Below, one piece after another: positions 53,402-63,626 of a DNA stretch of 64,000 bases (position 1 is the stretch's first letter; every line of letters begins with the position of its first letter). A program made the translations under genes and the position numbers. Origin of the DNA: Melioribacter roseus (GTDB lineage Bacteria; Bacteroidota; Ignavibacteria; Ignavibacteriales; Melioribacteraceae); assembly GCA_020726285.1 (NCBI GenBank), contig DYSW01000001.1, positions 148,975 through 212,974 of the forward strand. Direction: 5' to 3'. Under the pieces are notes generated by a model. The model was not told the origin of the DNA. It searched no databases and saw only the letters and a list, made by a program, of their open reading frames with translations.

Positions 53402-56400
53402 ATGAAAATTAATTTCAGATTCCCGCAAGTTGCTATTTCTAAATTCAATATTAAAAATTATATTCTTTCCTCTCAGAATGAATTACAACTTCGAGCAAAT
53501 TTTAGAGAAATTGCTTTTTTAATAAATGAAAAACAATCTGAAAAACTATCTGCTGGATTGTTGTATTCTACAAATCTTCTCTCAAAAATTTACAAATATG
53601 TGTTTGAGTTTTATTTATCTGATATTGATAAAAATGTACTAAAAAACCAATTTTCTACTTTTGCAAATACAATAAATGAATTCAGTTTTATGGAAATGCT
53701 AACTGATTTTTCAGAAAAATTCCAACCAGAAGAAGCAATGTTAAGCAAAATATCTTTAGAAGATTTTTTGTGGAAAAAGGAAAATGAGCGATTTATTTAT
53801 GAAAACGAAATTATTCAAACATTCATTTCATACTTAAATATTGAAAATCCAGCATTAAAAAACTTATCAAATATTATTAATTATGATTCACTTGCCAGCA
53901 AAGAAAATTATCATAAATACATTCACTTTAGTAAAGAATTTTATCGTAAACAAAAACCAGTTATAAATACCACAGATATTCTATCCTTTTTGTATGAACC
54001 TATTTTGAAATATCCAAATAACTTACAGGAGCAATTGGAATTCATTCGCGAGAATTGGAAAGAAATTCTTAAAGATAGTTTTGATGTCGAAATATTAAAA
54101 GCAATAGACATTTTTAAGGAAGAATACGTTTCTGCGAATTTCGGTTTTGGTGGAAATCCAACATTTATTCCAAATTATAAAGTTGATAAATTTGACGAAA
54201 CGGCTACTATCGGAAAATCTGGTTTTAATTATGCCAAATCAAGTCAAAGCGATTATTCCGAATTCAAAGCGTTTACTGACGACACACATTGGATGCCAAA
54301 TGTAGTTATGATTGCTAAAAATATTTTTGTTTGGCTCGACCAACTTTCCAAGAAATATTCTATGGAAATACGAACACTCGATAAAATCCCGGACGAAGAA
54401 TTGCTAATTCTTCATGAAAGAAATATTAATTCACTTTGGTTAATTGGAGTTTGGGAAAGAAGCGACTCTTCACGAATAATTAAACATTTACGTGGCAATA
54501 TTGATGCTGTTTCTTCTGCCTATTCGCTTTACGATTATCAAATAGCACAGCAACTCGGCGGAGAATTTGCTTTTCAGCAATTAAATGAAAAAGCAAAACG
54601 TTTTGGTATTCGTTTGGCGGCTGATATGGTACCAAATCACACGGGAATATTTTCGAAATGGATTGAAGAACATCCCGAATATTTTATTCAAAGAACAGAT
54701 TTACCTTTTCCAAATTATCAATTTACTGGAGAAAATCTTTCTTCAAATCCCGATTTACTTATTCAAATTGAAGATGGATATTGGACAAATTCCGATGCTT
54801 CTGTTGTGTTCAAATATCATAATTATAAAAACGGTGAAACGAAGTATATTTATCACGGAAATGATGGAACTAATATGCCGTGGAACGACACAGCACAACT
54901 TGATATTCTAAAGCAAAAAGTTCGCGAAGCCGTAATACAAAAAATAATGGATGTTGCACGAAAATTTTCTGTTATCCGTTTTGATGCTGCAATGACACTT
55001 ACAAAAAAACATTTTTCTCGACTTTGGTACCCACAACCGGGATTAGGCGGTGATATTCCAACAAGAACTGATTATTCTTTAACCAAAGAACAATTTGATG
55101 AACTTTTCCCAGTAGAATTTTGGCGTGAAGTCGTTGATAGAATTAACACAGAGATGCCTGAAACTTTACTTTTAGCCGAAGCTTTTTGGCTTATGGAAGG
55201 TTATTTTGTGCGCACTTTGGGAATGCACAGAGTTTATAATAGTGCCTTTATGCACATGTTCATGCTTGAAGAAAATGAAAAATATCATGGTTTGATAAAA
55301 AACACACTTGAATTTGAGCCTGAAATCTTAAAAAGATATGTCAATTTTATGAGTAACCCTGACGAAGAAACCGCAATTAAGCAATTTGGAACTGGCGACA
55401 AATATTTTGGTGTGTTATTGATGATGATTACACTACCAGGTTTGCCAATGTTTGCTCACGGACAAGTTGAAGGTTTTCATGAAAAATATGGAATGGAATA
55501 TCAGAGAGCATATTATGAAGAATTTGAAAACGAAAATTTGGTAAACCGTCACAAAGCTGAAATATTTCCAATTCTGAGCAAACGGTATATCTTTTCAGAG
55601 GTTACACATTTCTGGTTTTACAATTGTTTTAACTTCAACGGAAATGTTAATCATAATGTTTTTGCATTTTCAAATCAATTTCGCAATGAAAAAGCTCTGG
55701 TTCTGTTCAATAATAAATATGATAGAGCAGAAGGAATTATTAATTTGTCCGCGGCAAAATTAGTAGATGAAAATCTGAAACAAGTAACAATTTCTGATGC
55801 ATTAGAAATTCCAAAAGGGGAAAATCTCTTTGTGAAATTTAAAGAAATGGTTACTGATAAAGACTACTTATACTCAGTTTATGATTTTACAAACGGAATG
55901 GAAATTATGCTGAATGGTTTTGAATATCGAGTATTTACTAATTTTGAAATTATTTATGATGAAACAGGTATTTATCAGAATCTTTATTCAATTCTAAATA
56001 AAAATGGTGTTGATTCTATTCAAAATGAAATTAAAAAACAATCACTTTCAAATATTCATAATGCAATAATTAACTTATTTGACTCTACCAATTTTGAACA
56101 TATTATTTCAATAATTTCCCAAAATGAAAAAAATACAGAAGAATTGGAGAAAAATCTTGTAAATCTGGAAAATCGATTCCATTTTATTGTAAGTGAAATT
56201 GTTCGCAAAATAAGTGGGAATGTAGCAAAAAACAGATATGAATTTGATTTTGATTTAACAATTCATGCAATTTCTAATCTTTATAAAGTCCTTGCAAAAG
56301 AAGAATTTGAAATTGATATTAATCTGCGAAGGAATTACAACTTAATGTTCGACCATAATTTCCGTAAAAATTTCATCATTTTTGTGATTCTTGGTGCCAT

Positions 56401-56920
56401 TAAAGAAATTCAAGTTAAAACTGATTTCAAATCAATTTACGAAATTGAACCCGAAATTCTGCTTTCAGAACCTTTATACGCAATTTTTTATAAATTGGAT
56501 TTATCTTCTGATGAAATTGAAGAAACTAAACAATTAATCGGAATTCTATCTCAGTATTGCCAAACTTTGTGCGAAATTCATCGTGAAAAGGGAATTGATA
56601 ATTTGGATTTCAATGTTTTTGCTAATGAATTATTAAAAGCACTGGATTATGGAATTGTTCAGAATTTCTTACAAGTTAATGATTACAAAGGAATAACTTA
56701 CTTTAGAAAGGAAAATTTTGAAGATTTAGCAAGCTGGTTTTACACAATCTATCTTGTGGAAAGCCAAAAATGGAGAATTGAAAATGAAGTTAAAAATCAT
56801 GAAATTGATATGAATTTTAGAAAATCTATTAGAAAAATTGCTCAAATAATTGAAATTTCGAACGAAAGCAAATACAATTTTACAATTCTAAAACAGAAAA
56901 TTGCGAAAGTTATAAGTTAA
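53402..56920 (+). CDS. Large GH13 (alpha-amylase family) protein
   Basis: A 1172-residue protein without a signal peptide, so probably cytosolic. The central part (about 300-830) is an alpha-amylase barrel: ADMVPNHTGIFSKW, nucleophile Asp528 in VIRFDAAM, acid/base Glu593 in LLAEAFW and the third carboxylate Asp654 in SNPDEETA, where most GH13 enzymes have NHDE. LPGLPMFAHGQVEGF is the barrel end. About 300 N-terminal and 340 C-terminal residues are helical and not recognised. It is far longer than ordinary amylases (450-650). An alpha-glucan acting enzyme or transferase is likely; the exact reaction cannot be given. Its end overlaps the convergent barrel gene by four bases. Confidence 0.82.
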   Translation: MKINFRFPQVAISKFNIKNYILSSQNELQLRANFREIAFLINEKQSEKLSAGLLYSTNLLSKIYKYVFEFYLSDIDKNVLKNQFSTFANTINEFSFMEMLTDFSEKFQPEEAMLSKISLEDFLWKKENERFIYENEIIQTFISYLNIENPALKNLSNIINYDSLASKENYHKYIHFSKEFYRKQKPVINTTDILSFLYEPILKYPNNLQEQLEFIRENWKEILKDSFDVEILKAIDIFKEEYVSANFGFGGNPTFIPNYKVDKFDETATIGKSGFNYAKSSQSDYSEFKAFTDDTHWMPNVVMIAKNIFVWLDQLSKKYSMEIRTLDKIPDEELLILHERNINSLWLIGVWERSDSSRIIKHLRGNIDAVSSAYSLYDYQIAQQLGGEFAFQQLNEKAKRFGIRLAADMVPNHTGIFSKWIEEHPEYFIQRTDLPFPNYQFTGENLSSNPDLLIQIEDGYWTNSDASVVFKYHNYKNGETKYIYHGNDGTNMPWNDTAQLDILKQKVREAVIQKIMDVARKFSVIRFDAAMTLTKKHFSRLWYPQPGLGGDIPTRTDYSLTKEQFDELFPVEFWREVVDRINTEMPETLLLAEAFWLMEGYFVRTLGMHRVYNSAFMHMFMLEENEKYHGLIKNTLEFEPEILKRYVNFMSNPDEETAIKQFGTGDKYFGVLLMMITLPGLPMFAHGQVEGFHEKYGMEYQRAYYEEFENENLVNRHKAEIFPILSKRYIFSEVTHFWFYNCFNFNGNVNHNVFAFSNQFRNEKALVLFNNKYDRAEGIINLSAAKLVDENLKQVTISDALEIPKGENLFVKFKEMVTDKDYLYSVYDFTNGMEIMLNGFEYRVFTNFEIIYDETGIYQNLYSILNKNGVDSIQNEIKKQSLSNIHNAIINLFDSTNFEHIISIISQNEKNTEELEKNLVNLENRFHFIVSEIVRKISGNVAKNRYEFDFDLTIHAISNLYKVLAKEEFEIDINLRRNYNLMFDHNFRKNFIIFVILGAIKEIQVKTDFKSIYEIEPEILLSEPLYAIFYKLDLSSDEIEETKQLIGILSQYCQTLCEIHREKGIDNLDFNVFANELLKALDYGIVQNFLQVNDYKGITYFRKENFEDLASWFYTIYLVESQKWRIENEVKNHEIDMNFRKSIRKIAQIIEISNESKYNFTILKQKIAKVIS

Positions 56921-58425
56921 AATATTCTTAAATTATACTTCAACTCAATTCCGCTAAATTCTGGTTCGTAGCGACAAACTCCACCAATGCAAATATTTCC
57001 TGCTTGTCGAGTTCCTGCAAGCAGGGTAATCTCAGAATTGTCAAACAAATTATAACCAAATCTAATAAATCCCCAAAAATTCCTTTCAATTTTATCTATT
57101 TCGGGTTCACGAGTTTCCATTTCGCCCACGAACGACAAACTGAAATCGGGTGAATTCATCCATTCCAAAGTTATTACATCATCAAAATACTTTTCATCAG
57201 TTGGTAAAACATTGTTTTGTTGATGTTCAACAACCGCTTTTATAGTATTCACTTCATCGATAAAATATTTGAATTCGCAAACGGGAGTTAAACTTTTTGT
57301 ATTTGTAATTGCTTCCATTTTGTAACCAAAACCAAAAGTTAATCCGAAATAATTGCTTGTATTTTCAAATTTTGCAAAAATATCTTCTAATAATAATTCA
57401 CTTTCTGTAGTTGAATTACTAATCTTTTTGAAAAACGAATCTTTTTCGAGCGAATAAGTTCTTCCATAATTTACGGTTAATTTATTTTCGTCATTCACCA
57501 GATAATCAGCAGAAATATGAAAGCCAACTTCGTTATTATGATTTAATGAAAATGGATGTCGATTTAATAAAATATAAGAATAATCAAAAGTTAATGATGG
57601 CGGAGTGTTGTAAATAATTGTTCCATCATAACTTGTTAGCTTAAAGTTATCATAATATTTGAATTCGGTAGAAATTGAAAAATCCTTTATGTAGAAGTTC
57701 AAATTGGAATAGATTGCTTTTCCAACGTAATTTTGATTAAGATTATCTTCTAATTGCGAATTCTTTTTAATTCCATATTCTGTATAAATGTCAAAAAAAT
57801 CAAATTTATAGGCAAATCGTCCAGAAAAAAGAGTAGTAGGTTTAAATTCTTCGAAATAAGGTTGATTTGAAACAACTGAAAAACCAAGATTCAACTTATC
57901 AATTCCGCGGAATTCAGCATCAAAGCCTCGTAAAACATCTTTGCGTTCAGCTTTAGAATTTTCCGCCATACCAGAAACGGCTTTCAGTCTAAAATTATTA
58001 AAATTCGCTTCGAATTTAATTCCTTGTAGATTATTATCTACTCTCACGTTTCTATCTTCATAAATTTTTAGTAATAAACCGCGACCAAAAGTTGTGTAAT
58101 AATTTCCGATTATTGTATTTATTTTGCTTTTTTTCTCACCAATTTCATATTCTAAATACTTGAAGGAAATATCAGAATAATTAACTTTTCCTCGATTAAC
58201 TGCTGGGTTAATATCATTTGGTTGAAAAACCTCGTAACGCAATCCTGTTTTGAAATTACCGTATGAATAATTAAGGTTAAACCAATTTTCGAATGTTTGT
58301 CGTTGCAATTCCTTATCGTAAGAAAATTCCAACTGATTAGAAAGTGAAATACCGCTTGGTAATTCAATAATTTGTCCGAAAGTTGTGTTAAATAGCAAAA
58401 TTATAAATATTAGTATTTTCTTCAT
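56917..58425 (-). CDS. Outer-membrane beta-barrel protein, DUF6029-like
   Basis: A 502-residue protein with a signal peptide (1-17, ending TTFGQ). Beyond it the sequence is a long series of amphipathic strands (LNYSYGNFKTGLRYEVF, LGFSVVSNQPYF, FSISTEFKYYDNFKL, FGFIRFGYNLFDN-like), ending in the aromatic terminus NLRIF, as in outer-membrane barrels. Near the C-terminus Cys479 and Cys484 form CIGGVC, which could bond or bind metal. The GRGLLLKIYEDRNVRVDNN segment resembles DUF6029 proteins of Bacteroidota, which occur near Omp28-like and TlpA-like genes. It is the last gene of a five-gene cluster; its start shares one base with the tlpA-like stop. Confidence 0.75.
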   Translation of the reverse strand: MKKILIFIILLFNTTFGQIIELPSGISLSNQLEFSYDKELQRQTFENWFNLNYSYGNFKTGLRYEVFQPNDINPAVNRGKVNYSDISFKYLEYEIGEKKSKINTIIGNYYTTFGRGLLLKIYEDRNVRVDNNLQGIKFEANFNNFRLKAVSGMAENSKAERKDVLRGFDAEFRGIDKLNLGFSVVSNQPYFEEFKPTTLFSGRFAYKFDFFDIYTEYGIKKNSQLEDNLNQNYVGKAIYSNLNFYIKDFSISTEFKYYDNFKLTSYDGTIIYNTPPSLTFDYSYILLNRHPFSLNHNNEVGFHISADYLVNDENKLTVNYGRTYSLEKDSFFKKISNSTTESELLLEDIFAKFENTSNYFGLTFGFGYKMEAITNTKSLTPVCEFKYFIDEVNTIKAVVEHQQNNVLPTDEKYFDDVITLEWMNSPDFSLSFVGEMETREPEIDKIERNFWGFIRFGYNLFDNSEITLLAGTRQAGNICIGGVCRYEPEFSGIELKYNLRIF

Positions 58426-58931
58426 TATTTTATCTTTAATAATTCTTTAATATGCTCTTCAATTTGTATTTCATCACCTTTTTTAAAACCGGAATGACTA
58501 TAAACAATCTCACCTTTGGAATTAATTAAGAATGTATGTGGAATAGTTTGAACGTAATAATCGCGAGCAGTTTGGTTTTCAGAATCTAAAAGTACTTGGA
58601 ATTTGTAATTGTTTGAGCGAATAAATGGTAAAACTTTGGACACACTTTTTTCGTTATCTACTGAAATTGCAAACATTTGTAGATTGTAAGATTTGTACTT
58701 TTCAAAAATTTTGTTATAAATTTTCATTTCTTCAACGCAAGGTTTGCACCAAGTTGCCCAGAAATTAATTAATATCGGACCTTTTCCAAGAAATTCTTTC
58801 AGTTCGACAAATTCGCCACTTAAATTTTCTAATTCAAAATTTGGAGCTTTTGAACTTTGGTTTTGACCAAAAACGCTTAAAAATCCAAAAAACGCAAGAA
58901 AAATTGTTTTTTTTATCATTATATAAACCAT
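58425..58931 (-). CDS. TlpA-like periplasmic thiol-disulfide oxidoreductase
   Basis: A 168-residue exported thioredoxin-fold protein. Signal peptide about 5-22 (FLAFFGFLSVFGQ), then the TlpA/ResA pattern: APNFELENLSGEFVELKEFL, INFWATWCKPC with Cys62 and Cys65, DNEKSVSKVLPFI and TIPHTFLINSKGEIVYSHSG with the cis-proline. The fold normally reduces disulfides of partner proteins outside the cytoplasm. ATG 58931 is used; an ATG four codons later (58919) gives an equally good signal. The neighbours are an outer-membrane barrel and three exported Cys-pair proteins, its likely clients. Confidence 0.92.
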   Translation of the reverse strand: MVYIMIKKTIFLAFFGFLSVFGQNQSSKAPNFELENLSGEFVELKEFLGKGPILINFWATWCKPCVEEMKIYNKIFEKYKSYNLQMFAISVDNEKSVSKVLPFIRSNNYKFQVLLDSENQTARDYYVQTIPHTFLINSKGEIVYSHSGFKKGDEIQIEEHIKELLKIK

Positions 58932-58969
58932 CTTTATTAATTTATTTACTAATTAGTGAACTTAATTTT

Positions 58970-59680
58970 TTACTTCAATAAAATCATTTTTTTAATTTCA
59001 CTAAATCCGCTAGAAGTTAGTAATTGATAAAAATACACACCACTTGGTAAATCATTTGCAATAAATTCAACTTCATAATTGCCAGCAGAATGGGGTTTGT
59101 TTAGCAATTCTGCAACTTGCTCGCCTAGTAAATTATGAACCGTAATTTTTACAACACTACTTTCTTTTAATGAATATTTTATAATTGTACTTGGGTTAAA
59201 TGGATTTGGATAATTCTGTAAAAGAGCAAAGCTTGTAGAAATATTTTCGGAATTTATGTCAGAAGTTGTAACATTAATTGAAAAATTTACTAATTGAGAA
59301 TCAGCAAAATCTGCAACATTTCCAAAACGGAGGTTGATTTCCCCGTTTCCTGGAAAATCTTGTGGAAAAACGTGAAGTGAAACTTCGCGACTTTCTCCAG
59401 CCGAAAGTGAACGACTTCCGAAAGTTGACGTTGTTGCAATGCTATCCAAAGTTGGTGAAAAGCAAAATGTGAAACAAAGTGATGAACTCCAACCAGGCTC
59501 AATATCATTTAATGTTCGTTTTACGTATAAATCCAAACTGTTATTTGTCGTATTTGTGAGTAAAATATCAAAAACAATTTCGGAATTGACGGTATCTGAA
59601 ACTTCGTTTGTTTCGTACTGAAGAGAAAAAGTTTGAGCATAAAAAGTTGATGCTAAAAAGAGAATTGCTAATAATTTCAT
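58970..59680 (-). CDS. Small T9SS-exported protein with CxxxC pair
   Basis: A 236-residue protein: signal peptide (1-15, ending STFYAQ), a single Ig-like domain of about 130 residues with a Trp-Ser-Ser-Ser-Leu-Cys segment (Cys69, Cys73, CFTFC), and a T9SS type A sorting domain from about 155 (LLQNYPNPFNPST, then VHNLLGEQV and SGVYFYQLL, ending KKMILLK). The tail directs outer-membrane passage and surface attachment. The Ig-like part (TNTTNNSLDLYVKRTLNDI) with its cysteine pair also resembles the middle domain of the larger T9SS protein encoded upstream. Function unknown; probably a surface partner of that protein. Confidence 0.8.
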   Translation of the reverse strand: MKLLAILFLASTFYAQTFSLQYETNEVSDTVNSEIVFDILLTNTTNNSLDLYVKRTLNDIEPGWSSSLCFTFCFSPTLDSIATTSTFGSRSLSAGESREVSLHVFPQDFPGNGEINLRFGNVADFADSQLVNFSINVTTSDINSENISTSFALLQNYPNPFNPSTIIKYSLKESSVVKITVHNLLGEQVAELLNKPHSAGNYEVEFIANDLPSGVYFYQLLTSSGFSEIKKMILLK

Positions 59681-59691
59681 AAAAATGTCTC

Positions 59692-61734
59692 TTATTTAAT
59701 TAAAATCATTTTTTTTGATTCCACAAAATTGTTAAACCTTAATTGATAAAAATATACACCAGCAGCAAGATTTAAACTTGATTCTGAAAAATGGAATGTA
59801 TGATAACCAAAATCTTGATTATTGTTCATTAAAGTTGTGATTTCTTTTCCTGTAACATCATAAATCTTTAGAATTACAAGTCCATTACTTGGGAGAAAAT
59901 AATCTACATTTGTTCCGCTTGAAATATTAGAATTTTTCTCATTTTTGAGGAAAAACGGATTTGGATAATTCTGTGAAACGTAGAATTTTGTTGGAACTAA
60001 AGGTTCTTCTTCAATTGGAATTCCGTCTAAAACGTCAAACCAAACTAATGATTTTTTTATCAGATTTATTTGTGCTTGTGTTGTACTTACTAATTCCAAA
60101 CCAATACCTAAATAAATAGTTTTATAATTTTCTGTTTCATTTCTTATTCCACCATATTTTGAGGTATTTGTATATTTTATAAATCCAGTTGAATTGCTTC
60201 CGTAAACGCGAATTTCTTCTGGATAACGACTATATAGCGAGCGAATTGAAAATGATAATCCATCTGAAATTGGATCTCCAGCAATTCCAATCATAGAATA
60301 AACGCCAGAATTATCATTCACATATGTAGAACCGAGATAATTTTTATAGAAATTTTGAGCATTAACAAAATTACTACTTCCACTCGCATCAAAAATATCC
60401 CAACCAATATCTTGCCCAGAAATAAACAAATTTCCGCCGTTGTCTAAATATGGAGTTAGAAAATCAAGATCACTTTGTGTAATTGCTGGAAAGCCCCAAC
60501 CCGAATTCCAAAAAACGGCATCAAAATCATATTCCGACAATTGTGTACTAAGTGTGGAAAGAAAAGCACGATCAAGATTTGTAAATTCAACATTCGAACT
60601 ATCTAAAGCAGTTTTAAAATAAGTTTCGTAGTTTTCACCACCATCAGCATCAATTAAAAGAATATTACCCTTTGGCAATATTCCGAAATAATAAGCTGAA
60701 TAACTATATAAATATTCATCATCAAGGTTTTGGGCAATTAAATTTATTGTACCGTTTCCAGGATTTTCATTTGTTGTTAACTCAGTGTTAAACAATAATG
60801 TATCGCCAGGTTGTAAAATTGTTTTAATTGAATCTGTATTTATTCCATCCGCCAAAAGAGAAAAATCCCAACCTTCAGCAAGTTCAATTTCGGGCAAAAT
60901 TCTGATATTCAAGGAATCTAAGTTGTTATTAATAATTTGAAATGATTGTGTTACAGTTTGATTTTCCGTAAGAATCTCGGCATTTGTACCATCTGTATTA
61001 ATAATGAACGTAGGTAAATTAATATTTGATTGAAATACTTGTTTAGTATTATCATCCTGAATCCAAGCGATTACGGCAATATCATCCAAATTCCAATCTC
61101 TGCTAATTTCAGCTGAAAAAGAAAAATCAAGAGTGTCATTTTCGTCAAGTTGAATAACTTCACCGTTGGTTGAAGGTAACATTTTTCTGAAAACATCGTT
61201 AAATTCCTTTTCGCCGTTTGAACCTGGAGCAGTTGCATATTCAATTCGTCTTTCAATAATTGCAACACGTAATTTTAAGTTGTTCGATGAAATTGCAGAA
61301 GTAGAAATTATTTGAACATTTACATCGTAATTTGTAGAATTTAACGCACCAGAAACTGTAATCCAAATTGGTGAACCGTTTTCGTTATCAATCAACATTT
61401 CATTTTGAAGTGAAACAGCACTACCGGGAACGCCTTTCGAAACGCCATTCATTGCGTAACCTGGGACTCCAGAAATTCCATAGTAACTTATTCTATTCGA
61501 ATTTTCTGTAGTATTGTGTTCGTACATTGGGTCGTATCCTGGCCAAGAAGCGTGGTAGCGAACAGAAATTACACCACCAAAATTTGTAGAAATAAATTTT
61601 TGTAATTCTGGATTTGCCGCAGCACAAGGCGAGCAACTTGCATTTGTTGCTTCTTCAAGAAGGGAAATTCTTCTAAATTGAGCAAAATTGGTTACAGCAA
61701 AAAATATAATTATAAGAAAAATTAATTTTCGCAT
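59692..61734 (-). CDS. Omp28-like T9SS-exported protein with thioredoxin-like CSPC domain
   Basis: A 680-residue protein. Signal peptide 1-19; Omp28/thioredoxin-like domain at about 20-250 with Cys34 and Cys37 in EEATNASCSPCAAANPEL, then SVRYHASWPGYDPMY and VPGYAMNG with the cis-Pro-like region. An Ig-like segment follows (about 250-350). A glutamine-amidotransferase-like Rossmann domain runs about 355-590 (ILLIDADGG, GGNLFISGQDIGWDIF). The C-terminal T9SS domain starts about 595 (VSQNYPNPF, SGVYFYQL-type ending, KKMILIK). Its first domain is clearly paralogous to the lipoprotein encoded upstream (shared PGSNGE motif). It starts nine bases after that gene on the minus strand. Confidence 0.82.
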   Translation of the reverse strand: MRKLIFLIIIFFAVTNFAQFRRISLLEEATNASCSPCAAANPELQKFISTNFGGVISVRYHASWPGYDPMYEHNTTENSNRISYYGISGVPGYAMNGVSKGVPGSAVSLQNEMLIDNENGSPIWITVSGALNSTNYDVNVQIISTSAISSNNLKLRVAIIERRIEYATAPGSNGEKEFNDVFRKMLPSTNGEVIQLDENDTLDFSFSAEISRDWNLDDIAVIAWIQDDNTKQVFQSNINLPTFIINTDGTNAEILTENQTVTQSFQIINNNLDSLNIRILPEIELAEGWDFSLLADGINTDSIKTILQPGDTLLFNTELTTNENPGNGTINLIAQNLDDEYLYSYSAYYFGILPKGNILLIDADGGENYETYFKTALDSSNVEFTNLDRAFLSTLSTQLSEYDFDAVFWNSGWGFPAITQSDLDFLTPYLDNGGNLFISGQDIGWDIFDASGSSNFVNAQNFYKNYLGSTYVNDNSGVYSMIGIAGDPISDGLSFSIRSLYSRYPEEIRVYGSNSTGFIKYTNTSKYGGIRNETENYKTIYLGIGLELVSTTQAQINLIKKSLVWFDVLDGIPIEEEPLVPTKFYVSQNYPNPFFLKNEKNSNISSGTNVDYFLPSNGLVILKIYDVTGKEITTLMNNNQDFGYHTFHFSESSLNLAAGVYFYQLRFNNFVESKKMILIK

Positions 61735-61742
61735 AGCTTCTC

Positions 61743-62711
61743 CTAATTTGATTTACTGGAATTGTAAATTTCTTTTGTTAATGAATTTTGTATTAGACCA
61801 ATAATGATAATGTTATCTTCGTTCAAACCCGTAAGTTTTTTTGAAAAATTTAGTGTAAAATATGGCTGGGAAATGTAATCGTTTAGTGAAAATCCATCTA
61901 AACTTGTTAATGATTCGAAAACTACATCATAAAAGATAGTCTCGCCATTCGAACCGGGTGGAGAAGAAAATTCTACAACTTTTTTGACAACATAAAGATG
62001 TAAAATTAAATTCTGGGAATCTATTTCTTCAGAATTCAAAATATTAACTTCAACTTGAGTTTTTAATGTATCGAGATAATAATCTTTATTTACCAAAATT
62101 TCTATTGGACTTTCGATTAAAAGCTGATTTTCAATTGCATCTATTATTTCAAGTGAGTCGGTTGAAATTGGATGAATATTTCCATCAACAATTGTTGTTG
62201 GGGCAAACAAAACATTGTAAAACGAGATTTTTTTATCAAATAAATTCTCGTTTGCTAAGTAAAGAGGATCATTTGGTGACGGAAAATTTGTGGAAAATCG
62301 TAAAACAATGAGCTGATTTTCATCGAAACGATGTTTAAGATTCTCAATTATTTCAGATGAAATTACACAAGGATCGCAACTTATATTGGCAAAATCTTCC
62401 AAAATTACTGTTTTTGTTATCGATCCAAAGAATAATGAAATTTCTGTTGTTTGATTGGGATAAATTTCGACCGATTGTGTGTCAGAAAATATTCCGCTAT
62501 TTTCCAAAAAAATCTCATGAATCCCTGCAGAAAGTTCAAATTCTGTTGGAGTAGTAAATTCAGAAAGTACATTGTCAATATAAATTTTACTTGGATTTAA
62601 ATTTCCTGAAACAGATAAAATTCCATTTCCATTTTCAGAAAATGTTGGGGGATTTGTTTGACATGATAAAAGAAGTGTAAAAAGTCCAATAATAATATTT
62701 GTAAATCGCAT
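61743..62711 (-). CDS. Omp28-like lipoprotein with PEGA-like and thioredoxin-like CDPC domains
   Basis: A 322-residue lipoprotein: lipobox LLLSC with Cys17, a PEGA-like beta domain at about 28-95 (SKIYIDNVLSEFTTPTEFEL, AGIHEIFLENSG), then an Omp28/thioredoxin-like domain with Cys112 and Cys115 in FANISCDPCVIS. The later stretch VEFSSPPGSNGETIFYDVVF aligns with the T9SS paralog encoded downstream (EYATAPGSNGEKEFNDVF). It lacks a T9SS tail, so it is probably anchored in the outer membrane from the periplasmic side or surface. First gene of the five-gene cluster, with a candidate promoter at 62734-62764. Confidence 0.8.
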   Translation of the reverse strand: MRFTNIIIGLFTLLLSCQTNPPTFSENGNGILSVSGNLNPSKIYIDNVLSEFTTPTEFELSAGIHEIFLENSGIFSDTQSVEIYPNQTTEISLFFGSITKTVILEDFANISCDPCVISSEIIENLKHRFDENQLIVLRFSTNFPSPNDPLYLANENLFDKKISFYNVLFAPTTIVDGNIHPISTDSLEIIDAIENQLLIESPIEILVNKDYYLDTLKTQVEVNILNSEEIDSQNLILHLYVVKKVVEFSSPPGSNGETIFYDVVFESLTSLDGFSLNDYISQPYFTLNFSKKLTGLNEDNIIIIGLIQNSLTKEIYNSSKSN

Positions 62712-62764: not shown

Positions 62765-62790
62765 AAAAAATATAAAAAAAAGGAGAAATT

Positions 62791-63626
62791 ATGAATGATT
62801 TTGCCAATTCTATACAACCTGGAAGTTTATTAAAAACAGTTGAAATTTACTTAATTACATACGGAATGAAATTTTTATCATCCGTGGTTATTATTCTAAT
62901 TGGAACTTGGATTGCCAGATTTTAGTTGGGGCAGTTGATAAAGTTGCTGCAAAAAAAGAACTTGACGCAACTTTACGTAAGTTTTTGTCGAGCATAATAA
63001 AAAATTTGTTGTACATAATTGTAATTTTAGCTGCGTTGGATGTTGCAGGAATTCAAACAACTTCTTTTGTTGCGATTTTAGGTGCGGCTGGTTTAGCAGT
63101 TGGTTTATCATTACAAAGCACTTTAAGTAATTTTGTTTCGGGAATAATGTTAATAATATTCCGCCCAATTAAAGTTGGAGATGTAATAAATGGTGCAGGC
63201 GTTACAGGAACTGTGGAAAAAATTGGAATATTCTCAACAGAAATGATTGACCCAGATAATAAAGTAATAATTGTTCCGAACTCAAAATTATTTTCTGATA
63301 ACATAACAAATTATTCGACAAGAAGTACACGCCGAGTTGATATGGTTTTTGGTATTAGTTATTCTGATGATATTGATAAAGCTAAATCTGTTGTTTACAA
63401 GGTTTTAAGCGATGATGCTCGGATATTAGAAACTCCAGTTCCACAAATTGTTGTTGGAGAATTAGCCGATAGTAGCGTAAATATATTTGTTCGTCCTTGG
63501 GTAAGTTCAAGCGATTATTGGGGTGTTTATTTTGATTTGAATGAAAAAATTAAGAAAGGTTTTGATTCAAATGGAATCACTATTCCATTTCCTCAGAGAG
63601 ATGTCAATCTTTTTAACGAAAAGTAA
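62791..63626 (+). pseudogene. mscS: Small-conductance mechanosensitive channel gene with one-base frameshift
   Basis: An ATG at 62791 with AGGAG just upstream starts MNDFANSIQPGSLLKTVEIY and the first helix (FLSSVVIILIGTWIAR), then stops at TAG 62923-62925. One base missing at about 62918 would restore WIAR-ILVGAVDKVAAKKEL, and the next frame stays open to 63626 with TM3 (LGAAGLAVGLSLQSTLSNF) and the beta/alpha cytoplasmic domain (RPIKVGDVI, VPNSKLFSDNITNYS). The repaired protein has about 278 residues, near the 286 of E. coli MscS. Either a real mutation or a sequencing error. Confidence 0.85.

Follow-up and report, generated by a model that had tools for sequence, protein, structure and literature searches.

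Proteins of the DsbD, CcdA and ScsB type transfer electrons of thiols across a membrane, with thioredoxin-like proteins as acceptors. On the cell surface of Bacteroidota a thioredoxin is described with HBP35 of Porphyromonas gingivalis, which reaches the surface by export and reduces insulin by means of its CxxC; its transport to the outer membrane depends on the C-terminal domain, and what the thioredoxin domain does was left open by the authors (PMC2907840). HBP35 also binds hemin, independently of the CxxC, and promotes growth when hemin is depleted (PMC2907840). It has no known reductant, and no report of a TlpA or DUF6029 partner was found. Here we describe a five-gene cluster in a 64,000-nucleotide stretch of the Melioribacter roseus genome (contig DYSW01000001.1, in the following called the window), encoding two Omp28-like proteins, a small cargo protein of the type IX secretion system (T9SS), a TlpA-type thioredoxin and an outer-membrane β-barrel of the family DUF6029. 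As a surface thioredoxin needs an electron source, we propose with even chances that this cluster is the outer-membrane part of a relay leading from DsbD via TlpA and a cysteine hairpin of the barrel to surface thioredoxins. No description of a system linking Omp28, TlpA and DUF6029 was found in the literature searched, preprints and most subscription papers being outside the search.

The five open reading frames (ORFs; 56917-62711) are all located on the minus strand with junctions of -1, 38, 11 and 8 bp, i.e., one overlap of 1 bp and a largest gap of 38 bp. An earlier note on this DNA had pointed out the tight spacing and a close cysteine pair in each product, and both are seen in the ORFs and the cysteine listing: C383, C479 and C484 in the barrel, C62 and C65 in TlpA, C69 and C73 in the small T9SS protein, C34 and C37 in the second Omp28-like protein (Omp28B) and C17, C112 and C115 in the first (Omp28A). 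Apart from the lipobox C17 of Omp28A and C383 of the barrel no cysteine lies outside the pairs. The families named in the note (DUF6029 barrel, TlpA type, T9SS tail, Omp28) were borne out by Pfam and NCBIfam, for Omp28A by its structural model and Foldseek. In shuffled mature sequences the chance of a pair at most five residues apart is 0.065, 0.068, 0.05, 0.016 and 0.033 for the five proteins (product ~1e-7), and six of the 43 other ORFs of the window have a close pair. As judged from the alignments, the conservation of the pairs is stronger evidence than these shuffling statistics.

The distribution of the families was analyzed in a phylum-wide draw of 296 Bacteroidota genomes, with counts that take no account of shared ancestry. 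DUF6029 is found in 80 of the genomes (27%) and Omp28 in 62, and 58 genomes have the two together (Fisher p 4e-38, odds ratio 140, phylogeny-uncorrected), so that the barrel is present in 58/62 genomes with Omp28 vs. 22/234 of the others. Only four genomes have Omp28 without DUF6029, and three of these are weak matches. Among 54 fetched loci TlpA is encoded within 1 kb of the barrel in 44 and slightly beyond 1 kb in two, while one ends at a contig border; the genomes of the seven loci without adjacent TlpA each carry one strong barrel-type TlpA elsewhere (E 1e-47 to 1e-61). Omp28 or a T9SS-tailed thioredoxin is nearby in 46 of the 54. A set of 80 loci from named organisms, covering Ignavibacteria, Kapabacteria, Bacteroidales, Flavobacteriales, Hymenobacter and others, has TlpA within 1 kb in 68 cases and Omp28 within 4 kb in 75; the query pattern of this set contains CxGGVCR, hence its cysteine conservation is partly given by construction. 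The next commonest neighbour family reaches 19 loci. Among the cultured bacteria with TlpA, barrel and Omp28 is Hymenobacter duratus BT646 (contig NZ_JACWZZ010000004.1). The earlier note had made its proposal depend on the families travelling together and on conserved cysteine pairs. The first is borne out across the phylum by co-occurrence and neighbourhood counts, the second by the pairs of the barrel, TlpA, Omp28 and the heads related to the small T9SS protein, which are described below. In ~19 clustered loci a small barrel of the family OMP_b-brl_2 follows downstream on the same strand (e.g., L194:8270-8953), which is a possible fourth partner in those lineages.

One clade of the barrel tree, supported at 1.0 and spread over three host families, has the motif CTSGICY or CNAGICY and lacks Omp28, for which TlpA-family proteins with T9SS tail or lipobox stand in. 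This replacement is a single evolutionary event in which the formula of a periplasmic thioredoxin, a barrel with cysteine hairpin and a surface-directed thioredoxin was kept. The same tree groups barrels across host families: one family has the window-type barrel together with another barrel type, and another family has both CR-type and CY-type barrels. This mixture suggests movement of the set between lineages. In a sister species (L225, G009:C13:66956-78340) ~12 kb of unrelated genes split Omp28A and Omp28B from the rest with both halves intact; by eye this insert contains genes for a LysR-type regulator, a large sensor-type protein, a response regulator, a universal-stress-type protein and a TRAP-type transporter. 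From the five-gene unit of the earlier note the three families TlpA, DUF6029 and surface thioredoxin stand as the unit conserved across the phylum, whereas the five-gene form is specific to the taxonomic order of the window. That these genes form one functional system is close to certain.

The barrel gene (56917..58425, minus strand) encodes a protein of 502 aa, which matches PF19494 with 198.4 bits (E 2.7e-58) at a gathering cut-off of 27. In the AlphaFold2 model (pLDDT 91.5, ~24 strands counted from the DSSP string) the residues C479-I-G-G-V-C484 (codons 56974..56991, minus strand) form the tip of a β-hairpin at 476-487 (DSSP strands 476-480 and 483-487) between the final two barrel strands. 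If both termini are periplasmic, as is the case for known barrels of the outer membrane, the even number of strands would make this hairpin, which belongs to the last loop, extracellular. For the analysis of conservation 52 DUF6029 homologues were gathered by the Pfam profile and not by a cysteine pattern. Although their identity to the window protein goes down to ~20%, C479 and C484 are invariant in 52/52 with G482 between them (motif C-x-[GSNA]-G-[VI]-C), and they are the sole conserved cysteines of the family. In two other loci the barrel gene is frameshifted ahead of the cysteine motif (L083:8214-9934) or truncated to 372 aa (L084:8128-9246).

An invariant pair as the only conserved cysteines of a barrel that adjoins TlpA could also mean that TlpA and Omp28 are redox helpers which make or maintain the barrel, forming or isomerising the CxGGxC disulfide, and that the barrel itself is a transporter. 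For disulfide-dependent assembly of a barrel LptD is a precedent. However, an assembly helper needs no surface export, yet the Omp28 and TlpA-type partners carry such signals, often in several copies, and reduction of disulfides in vitro is seen with HBP35-type proteins (PMC2907840). We regard this explanation as unlikely, at about one chance in five.

Foldseek matches of the barrel comprise the FimD/PapC ushers, FrpB, MtrB and OprC with TM only ~0.3-0.5, and therefore the barrel is large but without a close solved relative. The sole paper found on DUF6029 discusses the family as a possible polysaccharide porin by similarity, based on HHpred likeness of Wzi-like barrels (PMC9603273). Weak Foldseek matches to AlgE would be in line with a Wzi-type polysaccharide-export porin; however, Wzi is absent from the 50 best Foldseek hits and the thioredoxin partners would be left unexplained. 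As no polysaccharide-export family is evident among the recurrent neighbours, this role was set aside as very improbable.

The TlpA gene (58425..58931, minus strand; 168 aa, start probably Met5) matches the AhpC-TSA profile of Pfam (E 2.1e-26) and has its active site CKPC at C62 and C65 (58737..58748, minus strand). An alignment of 40 TlpAs linked to barrels shows no variation at W61, C62, C65 and P131, and with a thioredoxin-family profile, WCxxC and the conserved proline the protein is classified as TlpA/ResA-like, although it stays below the curated cut-off of ResA (NF002854, 110.1 vs. 170 bits). The genome of the window has three TlpA-like matches in total, one of them in the cluster, and one DsbD. 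In two species of one genus TlpA and DUF6029 are naturally fused (L072:7939-9942, 667 aa; L093:1492-3507, 671 aa). A joint alignment with such a TlpA-barrel fusion placed the N-terminal halves of barrels on TlpA columns. The fusions are good targets for structure determination.

Both Omp28-like proteins are predicted from profiles and models to be thioredoxin-fold proteins of the HBP35 type, for which surface reductase activity would be expected. Omp28B (59692..61734, minus strand; 680 aa) consists of an N-terminal thioredoxin/Omp28 domain (PF11551, 59.5 bits vs. cut-off 34.9), a middle region and a T9SS tail (TIGR04183, 33.1 bits vs. cut-off 23). Its residues ~250-585 include an Ig-like part common to the head of the small T9SS protein, the remainder being amidotransferase-like by eye. 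C34 and C37 of the active-site-like CSPC (61624..61635, minus strand) and the thioredoxin proline P91 are the invariant columns of the Omp28 family. Omp28A (61743..62711, minus strand; 322 aa) is a lipoprotein with a PEGA-like domain, a thioredoxin fold and an Omp28 β-sandwich. It is below the cut-off of PF11551 (13.5 vs. 34.9 bits), nevertheless its fold resembles HBP35 and 2r2c. In the AlphaFold2 model (pLDDT 91.3) the strand-helix order of thioredoxin is followed by the β-sandwich; the active-site-like CDPC (C112, C115; 62367..62378, minus strand) lies at the start of helix 113-128, C112 beginning the first thioredoxin helix, and P171 precedes strand 172-175. C112, C115 and P171 are invariant. 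The best PDB match by Foldseek is HBP35 itself (5y1a, TM 0.61/0.62, rmsd 2.7, 247 columns), and with a CxxC thioredoxin domain together with an Omp28-type β-sandwich Omp28A belongs to the HBP35 type. Independently of the models, the Omp28 profile matches Omp28 (2r2c), HBP35 (5y1a) and thioredoxins, and the profile-profile match of Omp28 with TlpA is 96.8%. The genome has three Omp28-like matches, two of them in the cluster.

The hemin binding of HBP35 and its growth support under hemin depletion (PMC2907840) would fit a system for metal or haem acquisition, in which surface Omp28/HBP35 binds the ligand, the barrel takes it up, the cysteine pairs bind or reduce metal and TlpA is the reductant. 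The TonB-dependent receptors OprC and FrpB in the Foldseek list point in the same direction, but these matches have low TM (0.38-0.46) and no plug family of TonB-dependent receptors was found in the barrel by Pfam. In addition, the CxxC is dispensable for hemin binding by HBP35 (PMC2907840) and no metal-uptake family is evident among the recurrent neighbours. We therefore consider this explanation improbable, somewhat more so than a role of the thioredoxins in barrel maintenance.

The tight linkage of barrel and Omp28 might also be explained if the barrel exported Omp28 as a channel or anchored it at the surface, with TlpA keeping Omp28 reduced before export. Pattern matching in 55 Omp28-domain ORFs near barrels gives 24 with a T9SS tail and 28 with a lipobox; two of the other three resemble lipoproteins at the N-terminus by eye, and a contig end truncates the last. 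The partners thus use two unrelated routes, which makes a dedicated channel unneeded. Furthermore, the T9SS component SprA is encoded in 79 of the 80 genomes with DUF6029, and in the exception without SprA (G230) the partner is a lipoprotein Omp28 lacking a T9SS tail. A channel or anchor function is in our view improbable, at about one chance in ten.

The small T9SS protein (58970..59680, minus strand; 236 aa) has an Ig-like head without thioredoxin domain and a type A sorting tail (TIGR04183, 38.9 bits vs. cut-off 23). With TIGR04183 tails and a T9SS in the genome (one SprA; SprA_N E 2.1e-44) the tailed proteins are classified as type A cargo. The pair CFTFC (C69, C73; 59462..59476, minus strand) is kept in 12/12 homologous heads with a spacing of three or four residues (CxxxC/CxxxxC). 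Because of this varying spacing it is unlike a redox-active CxxC, and the sequences make a structural disulfide or a substrate more likely. From the thiol set of the earlier note the pairs of barrel, TlpA and Omp28 are retained, whereas CFTFC is not a redox CxxC. In one locus (L032, 8400-9836) the Ig-like head is fused to Omp28. In another (L051:10164-11075) the gene after the barrel encodes an Ig-like head protein with CFxxxxC in the place of Omp28, and therefore the head is tied to the barrel independently of the clade of the window.

The relay proposed here builds on the observed linkage, co-occurrence, cysteine conservation, folds, export signals, TlpA-barrel fusion and the presence of DsbD and T9SS in the genome. 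Each core member has a conserved redox-capable pair, and neighbours in the chain are joined by gene order, co-occurrence or fusion. It is likely that thiols are the chemistry of the system; complex formation, electron transfer, the outward reductive direction and the substrates are what we infer. DsbD would bring electrons into the periplasm and reduce the CxxC of soluble TlpA. TlpA would in turn dock from the periplasm, on the wide lumen of the barrel or inside it, and reduce the invariant CxGGxC hairpin of DUF6029. The hairpin would then pass electrons to the CxxC of surface-exposed Omp28/HBP35-type thioredoxins, lipoprotein-anchored or T9SS-exported, which could act on surface or extracellular disulfides; the small T9SS protein may be a substrate or accessory. 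More tentatively, TlpA may enter or cap the ~24-strand barrel, reduce the extracellular hairpin and keep the surface thioredoxins reduced, in which case this would be the first thiol-disulfide electron conduit of the outer membrane. The export signals, the folds and the fusion of TlpA with the barrel agree with the arrangement suggested in the earlier note, in which TlpA is periplasmic, the barrel serves as conduit or anchor and Omp28 is exposed on the cell.

Several points weigh against the relay. The pair of the barrel may have a purely structural role as a static disulfide, and its CxxxxC spacing differs from the usual CxxC of thioredoxin partners. For the relay TlpA would have to reach the hairpin, which is presumed here. 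TlpA is non-adjacent in ~1/7 of the loci, and DsbD is present in 295 of the 296 genomes and hence gives no discrimination. No mutant or biochemical data on DUF6029 were found in the literature searched.

In scans for promoters and terminators the number of sites did not exceed that of shuffled sequence. Convergent to the barrel gene, with a 4-bp overlap, an unusually long GH13-like protein of 1172 aa with an alpha-amylase domain is encoded at 53402-56920 (plus strand). Divergent from the cluster lies a frameshifted mscS-like gene (62790-63626, plus strand), which has an ATG preceded by a ribosome binding site near 62790 and a stop near 62923; the channel resumes in a different frame (ORF from 62907). 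Of this gene the sister species (L225) retains only remnants of the start and end, hence it looks like a decaying gene or a sequencing error.

Compared to known systems, HBP35 shares the CxxC thioredoxin domain, the surface destination and the overall fold with Omp28A and the T9SS route with Omp28B, whereas the lipoprotein nature and the PEGA-like domain of Omp28A set it apart. Among the NCBIfam families both Omp28 proteins score best with the Omp28-related selenoprotein (NF045500), whose name implies selenocysteine and would point to redox use; however, the window proteins are far below its cut-off (63 vs. 200 bits), and in a search for selenocysteine versions with NF045500 0/296 genomes were above it. 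Window TlpA has the fold, the WCxPC site and the invariant proline in common with TlpA/ResA, but its gene partner is an outer-membrane barrel. If the relay is true, it would explain how an HBP35-type surface thioredoxin, the activity of which was reported in 2010, is reduced outside the cell, and give a function to the uncharacterised DUF6029 barrel family. Reducing power would also have a thiol-based route through the outer membrane, and much of the Bacteroidota would possess a counterpart of MtrCAB that works with thiols. As in the porin-cytochrome conduits of the MtrCAB type, a periplasmic redox protein, a large barrel (MtrB being among the Foldseek hits) and a surface redox protein are combined, but instead of haem-binding cytochromes (no CxxCH among the cysteine motifs) the cluster has thioredoxins and cysteine pairs. 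DsbD, CcdA and ScsB are helical proteins of the inner membrane, whereas the candidate of the window is an outer-membrane β-barrel. The nearest analogues would thus be MtrCAB, which uses haem at the outer membrane, and DsbD/ScsB, which use thiols at the inner membrane, and by analogy the set described here would be a system using thiols at the outer membrane.

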